NCBI RefSeq assembly: GCF_009392895.1
Contig: NZ_CP045488.1
Location: 1,302,001 to 1,366,000 of the forward strand
DNA: 64,000 bases
From: Natronorubrum aibiense
Lineage (GTDB): Archaea; Halobacteriota; Halobacteria; Halobacteriales; Natrialbaceae
Direction of reading: 5' to 3'
The position numbers and the translations under genes were made by a program. Below the pieces are notes generated by a model. That model made no database searches. It had not been told where the DNA came from and was given only the letters and a program-made list of their open reading frames with translations. Shown here in pieces: positions 15,010 to 62,600 of the stretch (position 1 is its first letter; every line of letters starts with the position of its first letter).

Positions 15010-15150
15010 ACGCGGAGGAATCCCGACCGCGTTTGGGATATTAGGGTTTGCAGTCTACCACTTGTTCCCTCGGTGAGAATCCGTGGGACAAGTCATGAAG
15101 GTAGACTCCGGGCTGTGCCAACCAGCCGGTACTCCTATCTCCACCCAAAT
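14989..15150 (-). ncRNA. Predicted omega RNA (reRNA) at the tnpB 3' end
   Basis: TnpB proteins use a guide RNA made from the 3' part of tnpB and the right end. Here it would end with the hairpin and AGGATGTCAA, and the next bases outward, inside the DUF2892 gene, would be the guide. The existence of this RNA is inferred from family knowledge, and its 5' boundary is arbitrary. Confidence 0.35.
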
Positions 15151-16360
15151 CGGGTGCAGACTCAGAGTTACTTTGATTCAAGTTGAGACGGATGTTCTCC
15201 GCCCCGTTCACGTCAGCGTTGAACGCCGCATCACACGCCTCACAGACGTACAAGCCACGTTCGACACGCTGATTATCGTCTTTCCTACCGCAGACGCAAC
15301 ACGTCTTGCTCGTCTCGTGCTCGGACACTTCTACGACTTCGATACCCTCGACTTTCGCCTTGTATTCGAGAATGTTCGTGAAGCGGTCGAACGCCCACCC
15401 GTGCAAGTCGAGGTTGCCGTGCTTGCCCCAGTTCTTCGACTCGCCGTTGTCGTCCTCACGAACCCCCGCGAGTTTGCCGACGTTGATACGTCCCACGCCC
15501 CGCTCAATGCACTTCTCAACGATGTGTTTGGCGAGGCTGTGGAAGAAGTGAGTTCGGCGCTCCGACCACTTCTTGTGAAGACGAGTGGCTCGTTCGCCAC
15601 CGGAATCGTCGCACTTGGCAATCTCTTTCGGGAAGTAGTAGCCGTCCTGTTTGAGTCGGTTGCCGGGGTAGAGGTCGGCTTGCTCGGTACTGTACGCGAC
15701 TGCGGCGAAGTTACAGATTCCGAGGTCGATGCCCGCTGCTTCGTTACCCGGCGCGTTGGGTGTCTCGATTTCGTCTTTGCAGACGAGGTGCAGTTCCCAG
15801 CGTCCCTTTGCCTTGTCGTAGACGGCCCTGACCTGTTGTAGATTCTCGACGGTAACGCCGGGACGAGTTTCGTACTCGACAAGGATGTATTCCCACGCTT
15901 TGGGGTGTTCCTTGTGGTTCGCGCCTTTCGAGAGGCGCACACGGTTGTTCTTGGTGTCGTGTCGGATGCCGTTTTGCTTCCACGTCACCGTGCTACGAGG
16001 GTGTTCTTCGTGGACGCGACGGCCTTCTGAGTCGTAGTAGTTTTTCTTGCGGTAGCCGGGCGGATTCGCTCGATTGTCAGACTGCCTCTTGCCGTACCAC
16101 GAGTTGAAGGCTTCAGCGAGTTCCTCCAGAACGCGCTGACTGGACTGCGAATGCAATCCCTTGTACTTGTTGTGGATCTTCAACTCGTCTTTGAGGTCGC
16201 CGTGGTCAGGAATCTCGCCCGTGTCCTCCCACACTTGGCGGGAGTGGTAGTTGGCGACGTTCCAGAGTTTGCTGGCCGACCATCCGTGTCGGTCGAGCGA
16301 GTCCTCTACCTGCGCGTAGTTGAGGATTTTCGCTCGATGGGTGTGGTGGACTTCCAGCAT
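15041..16360 (-). CDS. tnpB: TnpB-family protein (IS1341-type OrfB) with altered RuvC-II site
   Basis: 439 residues from the ATG at 16360 (a GTG 7 codons earlier is possible). The RuvC-I aspartate is in GIDLGICNFAAV; the zinc finger is CCVCGRK ... CEACDAA; the RuvC-III aspartate is in FNADVNGAENI. At RuvC-II, where active TnpBs have V-x-E-D-L, this protein reads INVGKLAGVRE: glycine and lysine replace the two acidic residues. Active TnpBs are RNA-guided DNA nucleases requiring all three acids, so this copy may bind but not cut. As far as I recall, G at this position is common in haloarchaeal relatives. Confidence 0.85.
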   Translation of the reverse strand: MLEVHHTHRAKILNYAQVEDSLDRHGWSASKLWNVANYHSRQVWEDTGEIPDHGDLKDELKIHNKYKGLHSQSSQRVLEELAEAFNSWYGKRQSDNRANPPGYRKKNYYDSEGRRVHEEHPRSTVTWKQNGIRHDTKNNRVRLSKGANHKEHPKAWEYILVEYETRPGVTVENLQQVRAVYDKAKGRWELHLVCKDEIETPNAPGNEAAGIDLGICNFAAVAYSTEQADLYPGNRLKQDGYYFPKEIAKCDDSGGERATRLHKKWSERRTHFFHSLAKHIVEKCIERGVGRINVGKLAGVREDDNGESKNWGKHGNLDLHGWAFDRFTNILEYKAKVEGIEVVEVSEHETSKTCCVCGRKDDNQRVERGLYVCEACDAAFNADVNGAENIRLNLNQSNSESAPDLGGDRSTGWLAQPGVYLHDLSHGFSPREQVVDCKP

Positions 16361-16623
16361 TCTGAACGCTTGTATAACCACTTATACTTGCTTCTATTGT
16401 AAAAGTTCGGATTGAATACTGTGGAATATCCGACCGGGCTATCGACGGTGGATTGTGGGATGAGTTGTCGGATTCATCCCGCGCCTAAAGGCGCGGGTAT
16501 TCTCCTTGTTCTTTATAAGCACGAAGTAACGCCACGTCGGTCAGCGTTCGATACACAGCACACTGACACTCCAGCATCGCCCATCCGAAGGGCGTTTAGT
16601 CACGGCACACGGAGCATGGAGCG

Positions 16624-31875: not shown

Positions 31876-32772
31876 ATGACGAACGCGACGCTCGAGGTGG
31901 TGGTCCTCGCCCTGATTCCGGCGCTCCTCTGGGGCTTTACGCCGATTTTCGACAAGCGCGGGATGGCCGCGGGTGGCGGCTCCGTGCAGGCGTCGCTGGT
32001 CGTCGTGGTCGTCGACTCGGCGCTGTACTGGCTGGCGATCGTCGCCGTCTACGGTCGGTCGGCGTTTTCGGGGCTCTCCGCCGAAGTGCTCGCAATCTTC
32101 GGCTTTGCGGGCGTCGTCGGCACCGCGCTCGGGCGGATTACGATCTTCGTCGGCGTCGACCGCGTCGGGGCGAGTCTCAACAGTACGATCCTGAGTACGC
32201 GGCCGCTGTTTGCGACGCTGATCGCGCTCGCCTTTCTCGGCGAGCCGCTGGGGCCCGTGACGGGCGTCGGCATCGTCGTCCTCGTCGCCGGGCTCGCCGT
32301 GTTGACAGCCTCGAAAGGCGGTGACCTCGCGGGCTGGCAGCCCCGTGACCTGCTGTGGCCGATCGCCGCCGCGGCCACCTTCGCGATCGCGAACGTTGCC
32401 CGGCGCTACGGCATGCTCGAGTCGCCGATCTCGGCGCTCGAGGCAGTCACGATAAACGAGACGGCCGGACTGGTCGCGCTGCTTGCCTACGTGGCTGCCG
32501 TCGGCGGACGTGACGTCCTCGCAAAGCCACAGGCGTCGTACACGTACTTTGCCGGCAGCGGCCTCCTGACGACCATCGCGATGCTCTCGCTGATGGCCGC
32601 GCTGGGCCTCGAGGCGGGACGGATTGCGATCGTCGACCCGCTGGTCGCGACCGCGCCGCTGTTTACACTGCTCTTTGCAGCCGTCCTTTTGCGCGACCTC
32701 GAGCGCGTGACGAAAGGGGTCATCGCGGGTGCGGCGCTGGTGGTCGTCGGTGTCGTGTTGATTACGCTGTAA
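31876..32772 (+). CDS. EamA-family (DMT) transporter
   Basis: 298 residues with about 10 hydrophobic helices and the two-fold internal repeat of the drug/metabolite transporter superfamily. The conserved ends of each repeat are visible (ILSTRPLFATLIALAFLGEP and IVDPLVATAPLFTLLFAAVL). Substrate unknown; relatives export amino acids or nucleosides. The TAA stop codon is the first three bases of a 79-nt repeat. The promoter region contains palindromic copy B. Confidence 0.85.
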   Translation: MTNATLEVVVLALIPALLWGFTPIFDKRGMAAGGGSVQASLVVVVVDSALYWLAIVAVYGRSAFSGLSAEVLAIFGFAGVVGTALGRITIFVGVDRVGASLNSTILSTRPLFATLIALAFLGEPLGPVTGVGIVVLVAGLAVLTASKGGDLAGWQPRDLLWPIAAAATFAIANVARRYGMLESPISALEAVTINETAGLVALLAYVAAVGGRDVLAKPQASYTYFAGSGLLTTIAMLSLMAALGLEAGRIAIVDPLVATAPLFTLLFAAVLLRDLERVTKGVIAGAALVVVGVVLITL

Positions 32773-32848
32773 ACTACCCCACCCTACTCCCTCGGCGCAG
32801 ACGCGTCTCGGTCCTCGAGGGCGGAGGCTCCACCTCGAATTCTGCTGA
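32770..32848 (+). repeat. 79-nt dispersed repeat, copy 1
   Basis: Begins TAAACTACCCCACCCTACTC and ends in the GCTCCACCTCGAATT region. About 85 per cent identical to the copy at 39592-39670, and the same length. Its first three bases are the stop codon of the DMT carrier. A CGGAGGCTCCACC segment resembles the right ends of IS605-type elements. Confidence 0.7.
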
Positions 32849-39591: not shown

Positions 39592-39670
39592 TCAGCGTAA
39601 TTCAAGGTGGAGCCTCCGGCCTCAAGGAGCGAGGTGCGTATGCGCCGAGGGAGTAGGGTGGGGTAGTTTA
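39592..39670 (-). repeat. 79-nt dispersed repeat, copy 2
   Basis: Read on the minus strand it begins TAAACTACCCCACCCTACTC, exactly at the stop codon of the phosphohexomutase gene, and ends near CACCTTGAATTACGCTGA. It has the same length and orientation relative to the upstream gene as copy 1 at 32770. Confidence 0.7.
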
Positions 39671-41032
39671 CGCGTCTGCTTTCGCGTCGGCGAGCGTCTC
39701 GTACAGCTCGTCGGCGAGTTCTCGGGCGCGCTCGGTGTCGCGGGCCTCGGCGTACACGCGGACGAGCGGTTCGGTGCCGGAGGGGCGAGCGAGCACCCAC
39801 GCGTCGCCGTGGTCGAGTCGGTAGCCGTCGCGAGTGTTGAGGTCGGCGTCGGATGACTGGGCGTGGTTCGCCGCCGCATCGAGCATGGCGTCGCGTTCGG
39901 CCGTCGACTCGTAAGCGAGGTTGTGACGGACGTTTGCGTAGCCATCGTAGGGGGCGACGAGTTCGCTGACCGGTTGTTCGGCGACGAGTTCGAGGAACCG
40001 GGCTGCGGTGAACGCACCGTCTCGCGTGAGGCGGAACGCCGGGAAGAAAATCCCACCGTTGCCCTCGCCTGCGATCGGCACCCGCTTGCCGTTGGCCTCG
40101 AGTTCCTCGATCCGGGTGATGATGTTCGTCGAGCCGATGGGAGTGAGCTCGAGGTCGGCCCCGACCTCGGTGACGACGTCGACCAGTCGCTGGGAGACGT
40201 TGACCGCCGAGACGGTCGTGTCACCGGCCTCGAGTTCGGCGGCGGCGAGGACGGCCAGCGTCGCGTCGCCGGAGACGTACTCGCCGGTTTCGTCGAAGAA
40301 GATGGCGCGGTCGGCGTCGCCGTCGTGGGCGATGCCGATGTCGGCATCGGTTGCCCGGACGAGGTTGCCCAGATCCTCGAGATTGTCGGGCACTGGCTCG
40401 GGGTCCCGGCCGGGGAACTTGCCGTCGGGCTGGCCGTTGACCGTGACGACGCGACAGCCGAGCTTGCGGAAGAACTCGGGGCTGGTGAGCGCGCCGGCAC
40501 CGTGGCCGGGATCGAGTGCGACCGTCAGGTCGGCGTCGGCGATGGTCTCCCGGTCGGCCGCCGCGAGCAGTTCGTCGATATAGGACGTCGTAACGCCCTC
40601 GATCTCCCGAGAGCGGCCGGTTTCGTCCCACGGCGCAACCGCGAAGCCTTCGGCGAGCAACACCTGTTCGATCTCCTCGAGGTCGGCGATCGCGAGTTCG
40701 ATGCCGTCGCTGCCGACGAGTTTGACGCCGTTGTACTGCGGCGGGTTGTGTGAGGCCGTGATCATGATAACGGGGACCCCTTCTCGGTCGGCGTAGGCCT
40801 GTGCGCCCGGCGTCGGGATGATGCCGAGCCGATCGACGTCCGTCCCCGTACTCGCCAGCCCGCTTGCAGCCGCGTCGGCGAGCATCCGCCCGGTGTAGCG
40901 CGTATCACGCGCGATAGCAACCCGATCGGCACCCCAGGCCGTCCCTGCCGCTTTCGCGACCCGCAGGACGAACGCGGGCGTCAACTCCTCGTTGGCGACG
41001 CCCCGCGTCCCGCTCGATCCGAACACTTGCAT
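39668..41032 (-). CDS. glmM: Phosphohexomutase (phosphoglucosamine mutase / phosphomannomutase)
   Basis: 454 residues in the four-domain alpha-D-phosphohexomutase layout. The phosphoserine loop is MITASHNPPQYNGVK, the Mg site DGDADRAIF, the sugar loop GEGNGGIFFP and the phosphate loop RPSGTEPLVRVYAEA; all are complete. It interconverts sugar 1- and 6-phosphates for cell-surface precursor synthesis. Distinguishing glucosamine from mannose or glucose specificity is not possible from these motifs, so the symbol is provisional. Its stop codon falls on the first bases of a 79-nt repeat. Confidence 0.85.
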   Translation of the reverse strand: MQVFGSSGTRGVANEELTPAFVLRVAKAAGTAWGADRVAIARDTRYTGRMLADAAASGLASTGTDVDRLGIIPTPGAQAYADREGVPVIMITASHNPPQYNGVKLVGSDGIELAIADLEEIEQVLLAEGFAVAPWDETGRSREIEGVTTSYIDELLAAADRETIADADLTVALDPGHGAGALTSPEFFRKLGCRVVTVNGQPDGKFPGRDPEPVPDNLEDLGNLVRATDADIGIAHDGDADRAIFFDETGEYVSGDATLAVLAAAELEAGDTTVSAVNVSQRLVDVVTEVGADLELTPIGSTNIITRIEELEANGKRVPIAGEGNGGIFFPAFRLTRDGAFTAARFLELVAEQPVSELVAPYDGYANVRHNLAYESTAERDAMLDAAANHAQSSDADLNTRDGYRLDHGDAWVLARPSGTEPLVRVYAEARDTERARELADELYETLADAKADA

Positions 41033-60314: not shown

Positions 60315-61363
60315 GTGACGAGTGTTCCGACGCTCTGTCGGAACCGAGGATCGAACAGGTTCACATGGTGGGCACCACAACCCGGTCGTGGGTCGAATTT
60401 CTGGATACCGCTTCGTATCAATCCCGCCCAAGAAGGGCTGTGGCACGACCTCGTACACGGGGACGCTTCGGCGGGACAGCTCCGACTGCAACGCCACCGC
60501 ACGTCGTGGACACTTCACGTCACCGTCGAGTTCCCGATCGAAGAACCCGACTACGAACCGACAGACGACGATGTAACACCAATCGGCTTCGACATTGGCG
60601 AAGCACACCTGCTCGCAGGCACAGCCCGCGAGCAGGGCACCCCGACTGACCCACTGCTCATCAACGGTGGTCGCGCTCGCCACCTTCGCAAAGAAATGTT
60701 CACGACGCTCAAGCGACTCCAAGAGCGTGACGCTGCAGAGTGGCGGATTGACAAACGATTCGACCACTACCAGAACGCACTCACTGACATTATCGAGAAG
60801 GCGTCTCGACGTGCTGTCGAGTACGCCTGCCGGTTTGAGAAGCCAGTTCTCGTGCTGGAAGACCTTTTGTACATCCGCGAAGACCTCGATTACGGCGAAT
60901 GGATGAACCGACGCCTCCACGCATGGGCGTTCGCTCGCCTCCAACAGCGTATCGAGGACAAAGCACGAGAGGCCGGGCTTCCGGTCAAATATGTCCGACC
61001 GGAGTACACGAGTCAGACGTGTCCCGAGTGCGGCCACGTCGGGCACCGGAACGGCGACGAGTTTCGGTGCCAGAACGACGAGTGTTGGGTGTCGGAGTAC
61101 CACGCAGACATCAACGCGGCGGTCAACATCGCTGACCGCTACGACCCGTGGGGTGAGAGCCTGCCGCTGAAACCGGGGGCGATGACATTTCACGGGATGG
61201 GAGCGCCTGTGACAGCGCCACGACCCACCGAGAGACGAGCGAGGACCCCTCGCAATGACCCTCTCAGCCTTCCACGGGTTGGAACCCTCTGCCAGCAACA
61301 GCGGCACTTAGCTGGTATTCCCATGCCGGGAAGCCGCGCCATTTACGGCGCGGAGGATGTCAC
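60315..61363 (+). pseudogene. tnpB: 5'-truncated tnpB (IS200/IS605 family)
   Basis: The frame begins at a GTG at 60315 just after an in-frame TGA, but the first residues are not family-like; homology begins near FWIPLRINPAQEGLW, so about 150-170 N-terminal residues are missing. All three RuvC acids are present: FDIGEAHLLAG, VLVLEDLLYIRED and YHADINAAVNIA; the zinc finger is CPECGHVGH ... CQNDEC. No stop codon ends it: the frame passes through the element's right end and on into the gene at 61407. Probably inactive for lack of the N-terminal domain. Confidence 0.78.
61332..61363 (+). repeat. IS200/IS605-type right end
   Basis: Hairpin CCGCGCC / GGCGCGG (61334-61353) around ATTTAC, then AGGATGTCAC. 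It closes the tnpB element on its left. In frame it encodes part of the read-through peptide. The next bases outward would act as the guide if a guide RNA were made. Confidence 0.7.
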
Positions 61364-61406
61364 AGATATATACAGCAGAAAGACTTTATTTATATCCTTG
61401 ATATTG

Positions 61407-62600
61407 ATGACTATGCAAGCAGCCATCACCCGAGTCGTCGTTGTCTGTTTCTTGCTTATGACAGCGTCACTTGCTGCGGCCCCTGCCGCGAGTTCTGGAT
61501 ATAATCTCGAAGTTACCACATCAGTTTCAACACCTCAAGAAACGGTTGAGATCGAGGGTGACCAGTTTACTATCGATGGAATTGGTGTCGTTGAACCGGG
61601 TGATCCAATCGAGATTGATGTGACATCTAGTAAGGACTATCGCGTCACACTTTACAATACAGACGGTGATGGAGAATACCGCAGTGATCTCATCGATGCG
61701 GATAACGACCGTATCACCATTGGAACTCAAGATGATGACCTAGATACGAGCAATCTGGAAGGAACATACATGCTGACATTAGAGCCCCGAGGCGAAGGGC
61801 GGCAAGCTGTCTATCCAGTCGTTGTTCAGGCGTTTGATTTCCATCTCGAGTATCCTAGCATGGCAACGCAAGGTGAAACAGTCGAGTTCAGTACAACGAT
61901 CGACTCGAGCGACACATCGATGGTTGAAAGTGTTGAGGTAGCTCTTTGGAATGAGGCTGCTGGCGATGCTACTGAAATAACACTCGATAGTCAGGGAGAT
62001 GGTTCCTACAGTACGACAGTTGATCTTGACAGTTACGACAAAGGTGAATACACGATTTATGGTGCTGCCCTCAGTGACGACGAGGCAGAGGGCTATCCGG
62101 CACCGATCGCTATCCAGGGCGGGGAAACAATGACTGTGAGCGAAGATGACAGCAGCGATGATGATAATGATAAAAAAAGTGATGATGATGATAAGATGGA
62201 CACAGATGAGGAAGTGAATGAGTCTGATGAGTCTGAAAATAAAACAGACAGTGAAGATAGTGAACCGGACATGCCTGGTAATGAAACTGACAATGGGAAT
62301 GGTGTGTCAGATATGCCCGGTAATGAAACCGACAGTGAAGAGGGTGAGCCCGACATGCCTGGCAATGAAACTACCCCTGACTTAGAGGACACCTCCGAAA
62401 ATGAAACCGAAGAACACGGTGATGACGAGGAGGGTGGAAACGAAACGGGTGTTATAAATCCAAACGAAGAGTCCGACAATGAGACCGGAGATCAGGATGA
62501 AGACGCGGTTGGAACGCCTGGTGTAGTCTTCCTCGCGGTTTTCTTACTTCTTGGTCTGCTTGCGTTCGGTAGTCACGTCCGTGAAGGCGAACAGGATTGA
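61407..62600 (+). CDS. Secreted acidic surface protein with MPGNET repeats
   Basis: 397 residues from ATG 61407 (or 61413, two codons later). A Sec signal (MTMQAAITRVVVVCFLLMTA ...) precedes two beta-sandwich-like domains (about 30-240), then a long Asp/Glu/Asn/Ser/Thr-rich stalk with three copies of DMPGNET, each containing an N-x-T glycosylation sequon, and a C-terminal membrane segment (TPGVVFLAVFLLLGLLAFG) with a basic-polar tail. It is likely anchored and glycosylated at the surface. Codon use is clearly lower in G+C than in core genes. The upstream frame is open into tnpB. Confidence 0.72.
   Translation: MTMQAAITRVVVVCFLLMTASLAAAPAASSGYNLEVTTSVSTPQETVEIEGDQFTIDGIGVVEPGDPIEIDVTSSKDYRVTLYNTDGDGEYRSDLIDADNDRITIGTQDDDLDTSNLEGTYMLTLEPRGEGRQAVYPVVVQAFDFHLEYPSMATQGETVEFSTTIDSSDTSMVESVEVALWNEAAGDATEITLDSQGDGSYSTTVDLDSYDKGEYTIYGAALSDDEAEGYPAPIAIQGGETMTVSEDDSSDDDNDKKSDDDDKMDTDEEVNESDESENKTDSEDSEPDMPGNETDNGNGVSDMPGNETDSEEGEPDMPGNETTPDLEDTSENETEEHGDDEEGGNETGVINPNEESDNETGDQDEDAVGTPGVVFLAVFLLLGLLAFGSHVREGEQD

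Follow-up and report, generated by a model that had tools for sequence, protein, structure and literature searches.

The window, i.e. the whole stretch of 64,000 nt from Natronorubrum aibiense that was analysed here, contains an EamA/DMT-family transporter gene at 31876–32772 on the plus strand (PF00892, E = 2e-23) and a phosphoglucomutase/phosphomannomutase (phosphohexomutase) gene at 39668–41032 on the minus strand, with four PGM_PMM Pfam domains. As described in the first-pass annotation, a 79-nt repeat starts exactly at the stop codons of these two genes. The two matches, copy 1 at 32770–32848 (+) and copy 2 at 39592–39670 (−), are 89% identical over 79 nt, with an E value of 3.4e-23 for copy 2 in a search of the organism's own genome, and the TAA with which each begins is the in-frame stop of its gene, at 32770–32772 (+) for the transporter and at 39668–39670 (−) for the phosphohexomutase. 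Besides the two window copies, the genome holds four more diverged ends of the wider family. An Rfam search of the window gave no match.

Empty sites and the exchange of stop codons

The repeat is absent from the same-genus orthologues of both genes (0/5 for the transporter and 0/9 for the phosphohexomutase), which provide empty sites for comparison. The transporter gene of the window reads ACG-CT|GTAA...TTCTG|CTGATCG, whereas all five relatives (L162–L166) read ACG-CTC-TGA. Similarly, the phosphohexomutase gene reads GAC-GC|GTAA...TTACG|CTGA, whereas its closest relative (94% protein identity) ends with GAC-GCC-TGA. These empty sites assign CTGA to the host and GTAA to the element. Compared with the 79-nt repeat, the mobile unit therefore includes the G that precedes TAA, one base more on the left, and lacks the final CTGA, the four bases on the right that form the host target. 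The element proper is 76 nt in length, located at 32769–32844 (+) for copy 1 and at 39596–39671 (−) for copy 2, and the two copies are identical at 67 of 76 positions. On the gene strand it starts with GTAAACTACCCC and lies immediately 5′ of the target CTGA, at 32845–32848 (+) and 39592–39595 (−), respectively, in which the displaced native TGA stops of the two genes occupy 32846–32848 (+) and 39592–39594 (−).

Nine relatives of the phosphohexomutase gene end with TGA (five), TAA (three) or TAG (one). Whether the two genes keep native stops in relatives without the repeat had been raised in the first-pass annotation as a point against insertion; such native stops do exist but are mostly not TAA, as in the five transporter relatives, and the TAA of the repeat thus comes from the element and not from the gene. 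The same comparison was made for other host genes carrying the element. CTGA is present exactly at the joint in 19 of 29 relatives of the L289 host gene and in 17 of 29 relatives of the L293 host gene, with one relative occupied in each case and the rest having other stops or a poor alignment. The seven relatives of the L317 host gene gave CTGA in two, CTAA in one, GTGA in two and a joint that could not be aligned in two. As TGA was found in only five of nine relatives of the phosphohexomutase gene and CTGA in only two of seven relatives of the L317 gene, the native stop of these two genes is taken from the nearest relatives together with the right flank. Because TAA and TGA share a phase, the in-frame TAA at the element end replaces the in-frame native TGA wherever the target is CTGA, and on these alignments insertion exchanges NNC-TGA for NNG-TAA with the protein length kept.

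Relationship to tnpB elements

Long relatives of the repeat carry a conserved open reading frame antisense to it, ending 10–75 nt from the CTACCCC end in most of the best-ranked rows. In the full-length relatives this frame encodes TnpB (PF07282 and PF01385), with E values for PF07282 of 9e-24 to 1e-20 in the three elements tested (L106, L138 and L061). At their far end, the GTAAA-type elements have approximately ...GAGGCCGGAGGCTCCACCTTGAATTACG, followed by CTGA and then by a flank without conservation beyond a preference for A. As this far end of the full-length relatives matches the right half of the window repeat, and the 3′ end of tnpB matches its left half, both ends of such an element are fused in the window copies. 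In a gapless test against the parent L117, the copies matched at 72/76 and 71/76 positions as a right-end/left-end chimera, compared with 61 for the right end alone; among the six parents used, L061, L068 and L096 showed no clear split, and the BLAST pieces agree with the chimera. In the tnpB orientation, to which the window copies lie antisense, the element follows TCAG, the left-flank cleavage/target motif, and closes with TTAC, the reverse complement of which contains the TAA stop of the transporter gene.

The two ends of the element differ, i.e. there are no terminal inverted repeats, and there is no target duplication, the directly joined flanks matching the relatives. Hairpin arms were seen by eye in the full-length relatives, and the single-strand fold of the short copies (77 nt folded) showed nothing unusual relative to shuffled sequences (z of −0.76 to 0.74). 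With only 76 nt, the element is too short for a transposase. Both window copies are identified from their sequence as terminal-only (PATE- or MITE-type) relics of IS200/IS605-family tnpB elements, and the earlier suggestion that a MITE-like element had inserted at the ends of genes was borne out in this form.

Further traces of this family were observed. The genome of the organism has 47 matches to the TnpB zinc domain and six to the Y1 transposase (Y1_Tnp), five of the latter without and one with an internal stop, so that tnpB far outnumbers tnpA. The window itself encodes a separate full-length TnpB of 446 residues at 15041–16381 (−), with PF01385 and PF07282 and with no CTACCCC-type end adjoining it in the stretch inspected. 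At 60315–62600 (+), a single frame of 761 residues joins the C-terminal half of TnpB (PF07282) in frame to an apparently separate gene, the product of which seems to begin with a signal peptide and ends in an acidic tail; this frame probably represents a remnant of tnpB that reads through into a gene for a secreted protein. In six elements (L035, L046, L073, L109, L125 and L134), the terminal palindrome is interrupted, within approximately 60 nt of its CTACCCC end, by an inserted stretch resembling an inverted repeat, which by eye recalls the SMR-A elements in the available part of PMC3119063.

Insertion sites across haloarchaeal genomes

When named genomes were scanned for CTACCCCACCCTACTC, many haloarchaea among the matches listed had the same end, mostly preceded by GTGAA or GTAAA and rarely by GTCAA. 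Of 391 Halobacteria genomes, 86 contain the exact end GTAAACTACCCCACCCTACTC, with 129 occurrences in total, and its reversed pattern gave no match in these 391 genomes. All 129 insertions were examined, comprising 127 in retrieved loci and the two in the window. A gene caller written for this analysis placed 59 at a gene stop, 62 in intergenic sequence and eight inside genes, compared with 325 stops, 3316 intergenic sites and 5449 sites inside genes for the 9090 CTGA sites of the same loci. The excess at stops corresponds to an odds ratio of 22.7, or of 9.7 against intergenic sites only, with the reservation that the caller under-calls genes (coding fraction 0.73) and thereby inflates the intergenic background. 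A test independent of the caller gave 55/129 compared with 312/9090, whereas the same insertions read in the other two frames gave 0/129 and 3/129. Many copies away from stops had been named in advance as evidence against a link to gene ends; 70 of the 129 insertions do lie off called gene stops, but stops remain strongly over-represented.

Per site, the enrichment is 12.8 at stops, 4.6 in the sense 3′ flank within 50 nt and 0.1 inside genes; it is 2.1 and 3.8 beside antisense gene starts, 1.0–1.2 farther away and 0.4 where there is no gene to the left. Stops (59 insertions and 325 sites) exceed the sense 3′ flank (10 and 154) with p = 0.003. When the far-end motif was sought among a short list of tetranucleotides, CTGA was found in 83 of the 129 insertions and other tetranucleotides in five, the far end not being found in 41. 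The CTGA target was found in 41 of the 59 insertions at stops, and the change in the last codon would be synonymous in 33 of these 59 and nonsynonymous in 26. A search for last codons changed from TAC to TAG found TA before the G in seven insertions, one of which passed the coding test. All six elements of 74–76 nt, including the two in the window, are at stops, and one element of 171 nt is not. The 400 nt upstream of the insertions are unrelated, two pairs excepted.

Some stops have been hit more than once. The stop of the L289 host gene is also occupied in a second species of the genus (L329), by a different element; the sequence to the right of the L329 element carries on like the empty site of L327, and the L329 and L289 elements are only 67% identical over 551 nt. 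An insertion is also present in a related gene (L245) from a different genus. L379 and L293 likewise share a stop, their elements being 73% alike over 1318 nt.

A sister group with the end GTGA fits the reverse exchange, in which TAA would be targeted and TGA supplied. The far-end motif of the GTGAA elements is N-TAA(A), and eight of 64 insertions among the matches listed are at called stops, compared with 46 of 3077 TAA sites. One GTGAA host gene (L048, on a Natronorubrum thiooxidans contig), which is 100% identical in a genome of the same genus as the window (G008), has eight relatives ending at the same residue, with TGA in four, TAA in three and TAG in one, a pattern compatible with the reverse exchange. 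In a tree of TnpB, GTGAA ends form one part and GTAAA and GTCAA ends another, with stray frames among the 49 rows. The end GTCAA, which contains no stop, was considered as a negative control and gave four matches in the 391 genomes, too few to serve. Ends with a stop in phase, GTAAA and GTGAA, are common, whereas GTCAA is rare (four compared with 86 for GTAAA, of 391 genomes).

Origin of the excess at stops and relation to known elements

The element is very probably a terminal-only haloarchaeal derivative of an IS200/IS605 tnpB element, the insertion of which 5′ of CTGA exchanges the stop in phase and without harm. Movement would depend on a Y1-type TnpA assumed to act in trans; on the tnpB strand it would insert the element 3′ of TCAG, a position that corresponds to the 5′ side of CTGA when the gene strand is read. 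On the latter strand, the retained right terminus reads GTAA, and a target in which C-TGA contains the stop becomes G-TAA in the same phase, with the length kept and at most the last residue changed. Insertions at stops may survive simply because nothing is lost, and a TnpB guide with a match to the conserved 3′ terminus of the interrupted gene's coding sequence might bring a further benefit.

The constancy of GTAAA beside the element in this subgroup could also be read as a host target together with the gene's own stop, in which case the element would be CTACCCC...GCTGA and would merely prefer TAA stops. This model was initially favoured, but the joint in relatives without the element is CTGA and not GTAAA, and the empty sites of the DMT, L289 and L293 host genes contradict it. 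Relatives of the DMT gene also lack the G before CTGA, so that the host part is CTGA and not GCTGA, and the sequence after CTGA is weakly conserved, with a preference for A at most; there is almost no chance that this model is correct. Scarcely more credible is a selected 3′ regulatory element common to unrelated genes, such as a terminator or an RNA-stability hairpin, which the first-pass annotation had offered and which would suit two copies at gene ends in one orientation. More than half of the 129 family members are off called gene ends, the full-length members encode tnpB, the short copies have no significant fold and none of the five and nine same-genus orthologues has the repeat. Nor is such selection needed to account for the position.

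A more serious, although still unlikely, alternative is that the excess arises mainly from RNA-guided TnpB re-copying the element into empty alleles. A guide RNA from beyond the right end would correspond to the host gene's 3′ end in reverse complement, and conserved coding ends would let guides work across strains. The geometry fits the order of a TAM (TCAG) followed by a target, and the 16 nt that stop one base short of the L289 joint are identical in six of 29 relatives (L325–L328, L330 and L352), a match that concerns geometry and not activity. Stops are favoured even over the adjacent sense 3′ flank, and the same stop has been hit twice. However, the two elements at one stop belong to different lineages, with the identity of only 67% given above, which is not expected from re-copying, and the copies of 74–76 nt that lack tnpB are also at stops in all six cases. 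Survival of harmless insertions is the best explanation of the excess and is supported by the near absence of insertions inside genes. A positive cause, for example retention through a guide, may nevertheless contribute, given the double hits and the excess relative to the neighbouring 3′ flank.

The palindrome-associated transposable elements (PATEs) of Haloquadratum walsbyi are described in the available part of PMC3119063 as transposase-free, without terminal inverted repeats or target duplication, and some of them as terminal-only IS605/tnpB elements of down to 52 bp formed by repeat-mediated deletion of the core. The window copies share this terminal-only architecture; however, that part of the source mentions neither a location at stop codons nor an element that provides the stop, both of which are seen here. 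For IS608, the portion of PMC5934647 consulted gives TTAC as C_L and TCAA as C_R, with insertion 3′ of TTAC, which is retained in the left flank. The window element is similar in inserting 3′ of a left-flank tetranucleotide and in having a similar but nonidentical tetranucleotide at the right end, whereas its type has TCAG as C_L and TTAC as C_R (or TTAN and TCAC). On the antisense strand, TTAC and TCAA of IS608 read GTAA and TTGA, so that a same-phase exchange of stops would be expected there as well. As with the RNA-guided TnpB/OMEGA nucleases in the accessible text of PMC8612924, the full-length relatives encode TnpB beside the right end. In the open-access literature, in which PATEs and IS605 elements are already known, no description of stop-codon exchange by such elements was found; the excerpts of PMC12558985 and PMC7290912 do not mention it, and it is apparently undescribed.

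We tentatively suggest that in these elements, and perhaps also in IS608, C_L and C_R are both same-phase stops when read antisense, and that such elements may be cost-free colonisers of gene ends, exchanging TAA and TGA in a direction set by clade, with a TnpB guide whose anchor in conserved coding regions would allow RNA-guided retention in different species. If so, this would explain how genomes densely packed with genes can tolerate very numerous elements that neither splice nor use silent landing sites, and would offer a reason, amenable to testing, why the C_L and C_R motifs are paired. It would also be a warning that some haloarchaeal genes are annotated with stops and last residues that are part of a mobile element, and would suggest where TnpB guides with an anchor in conserved genes could come from.
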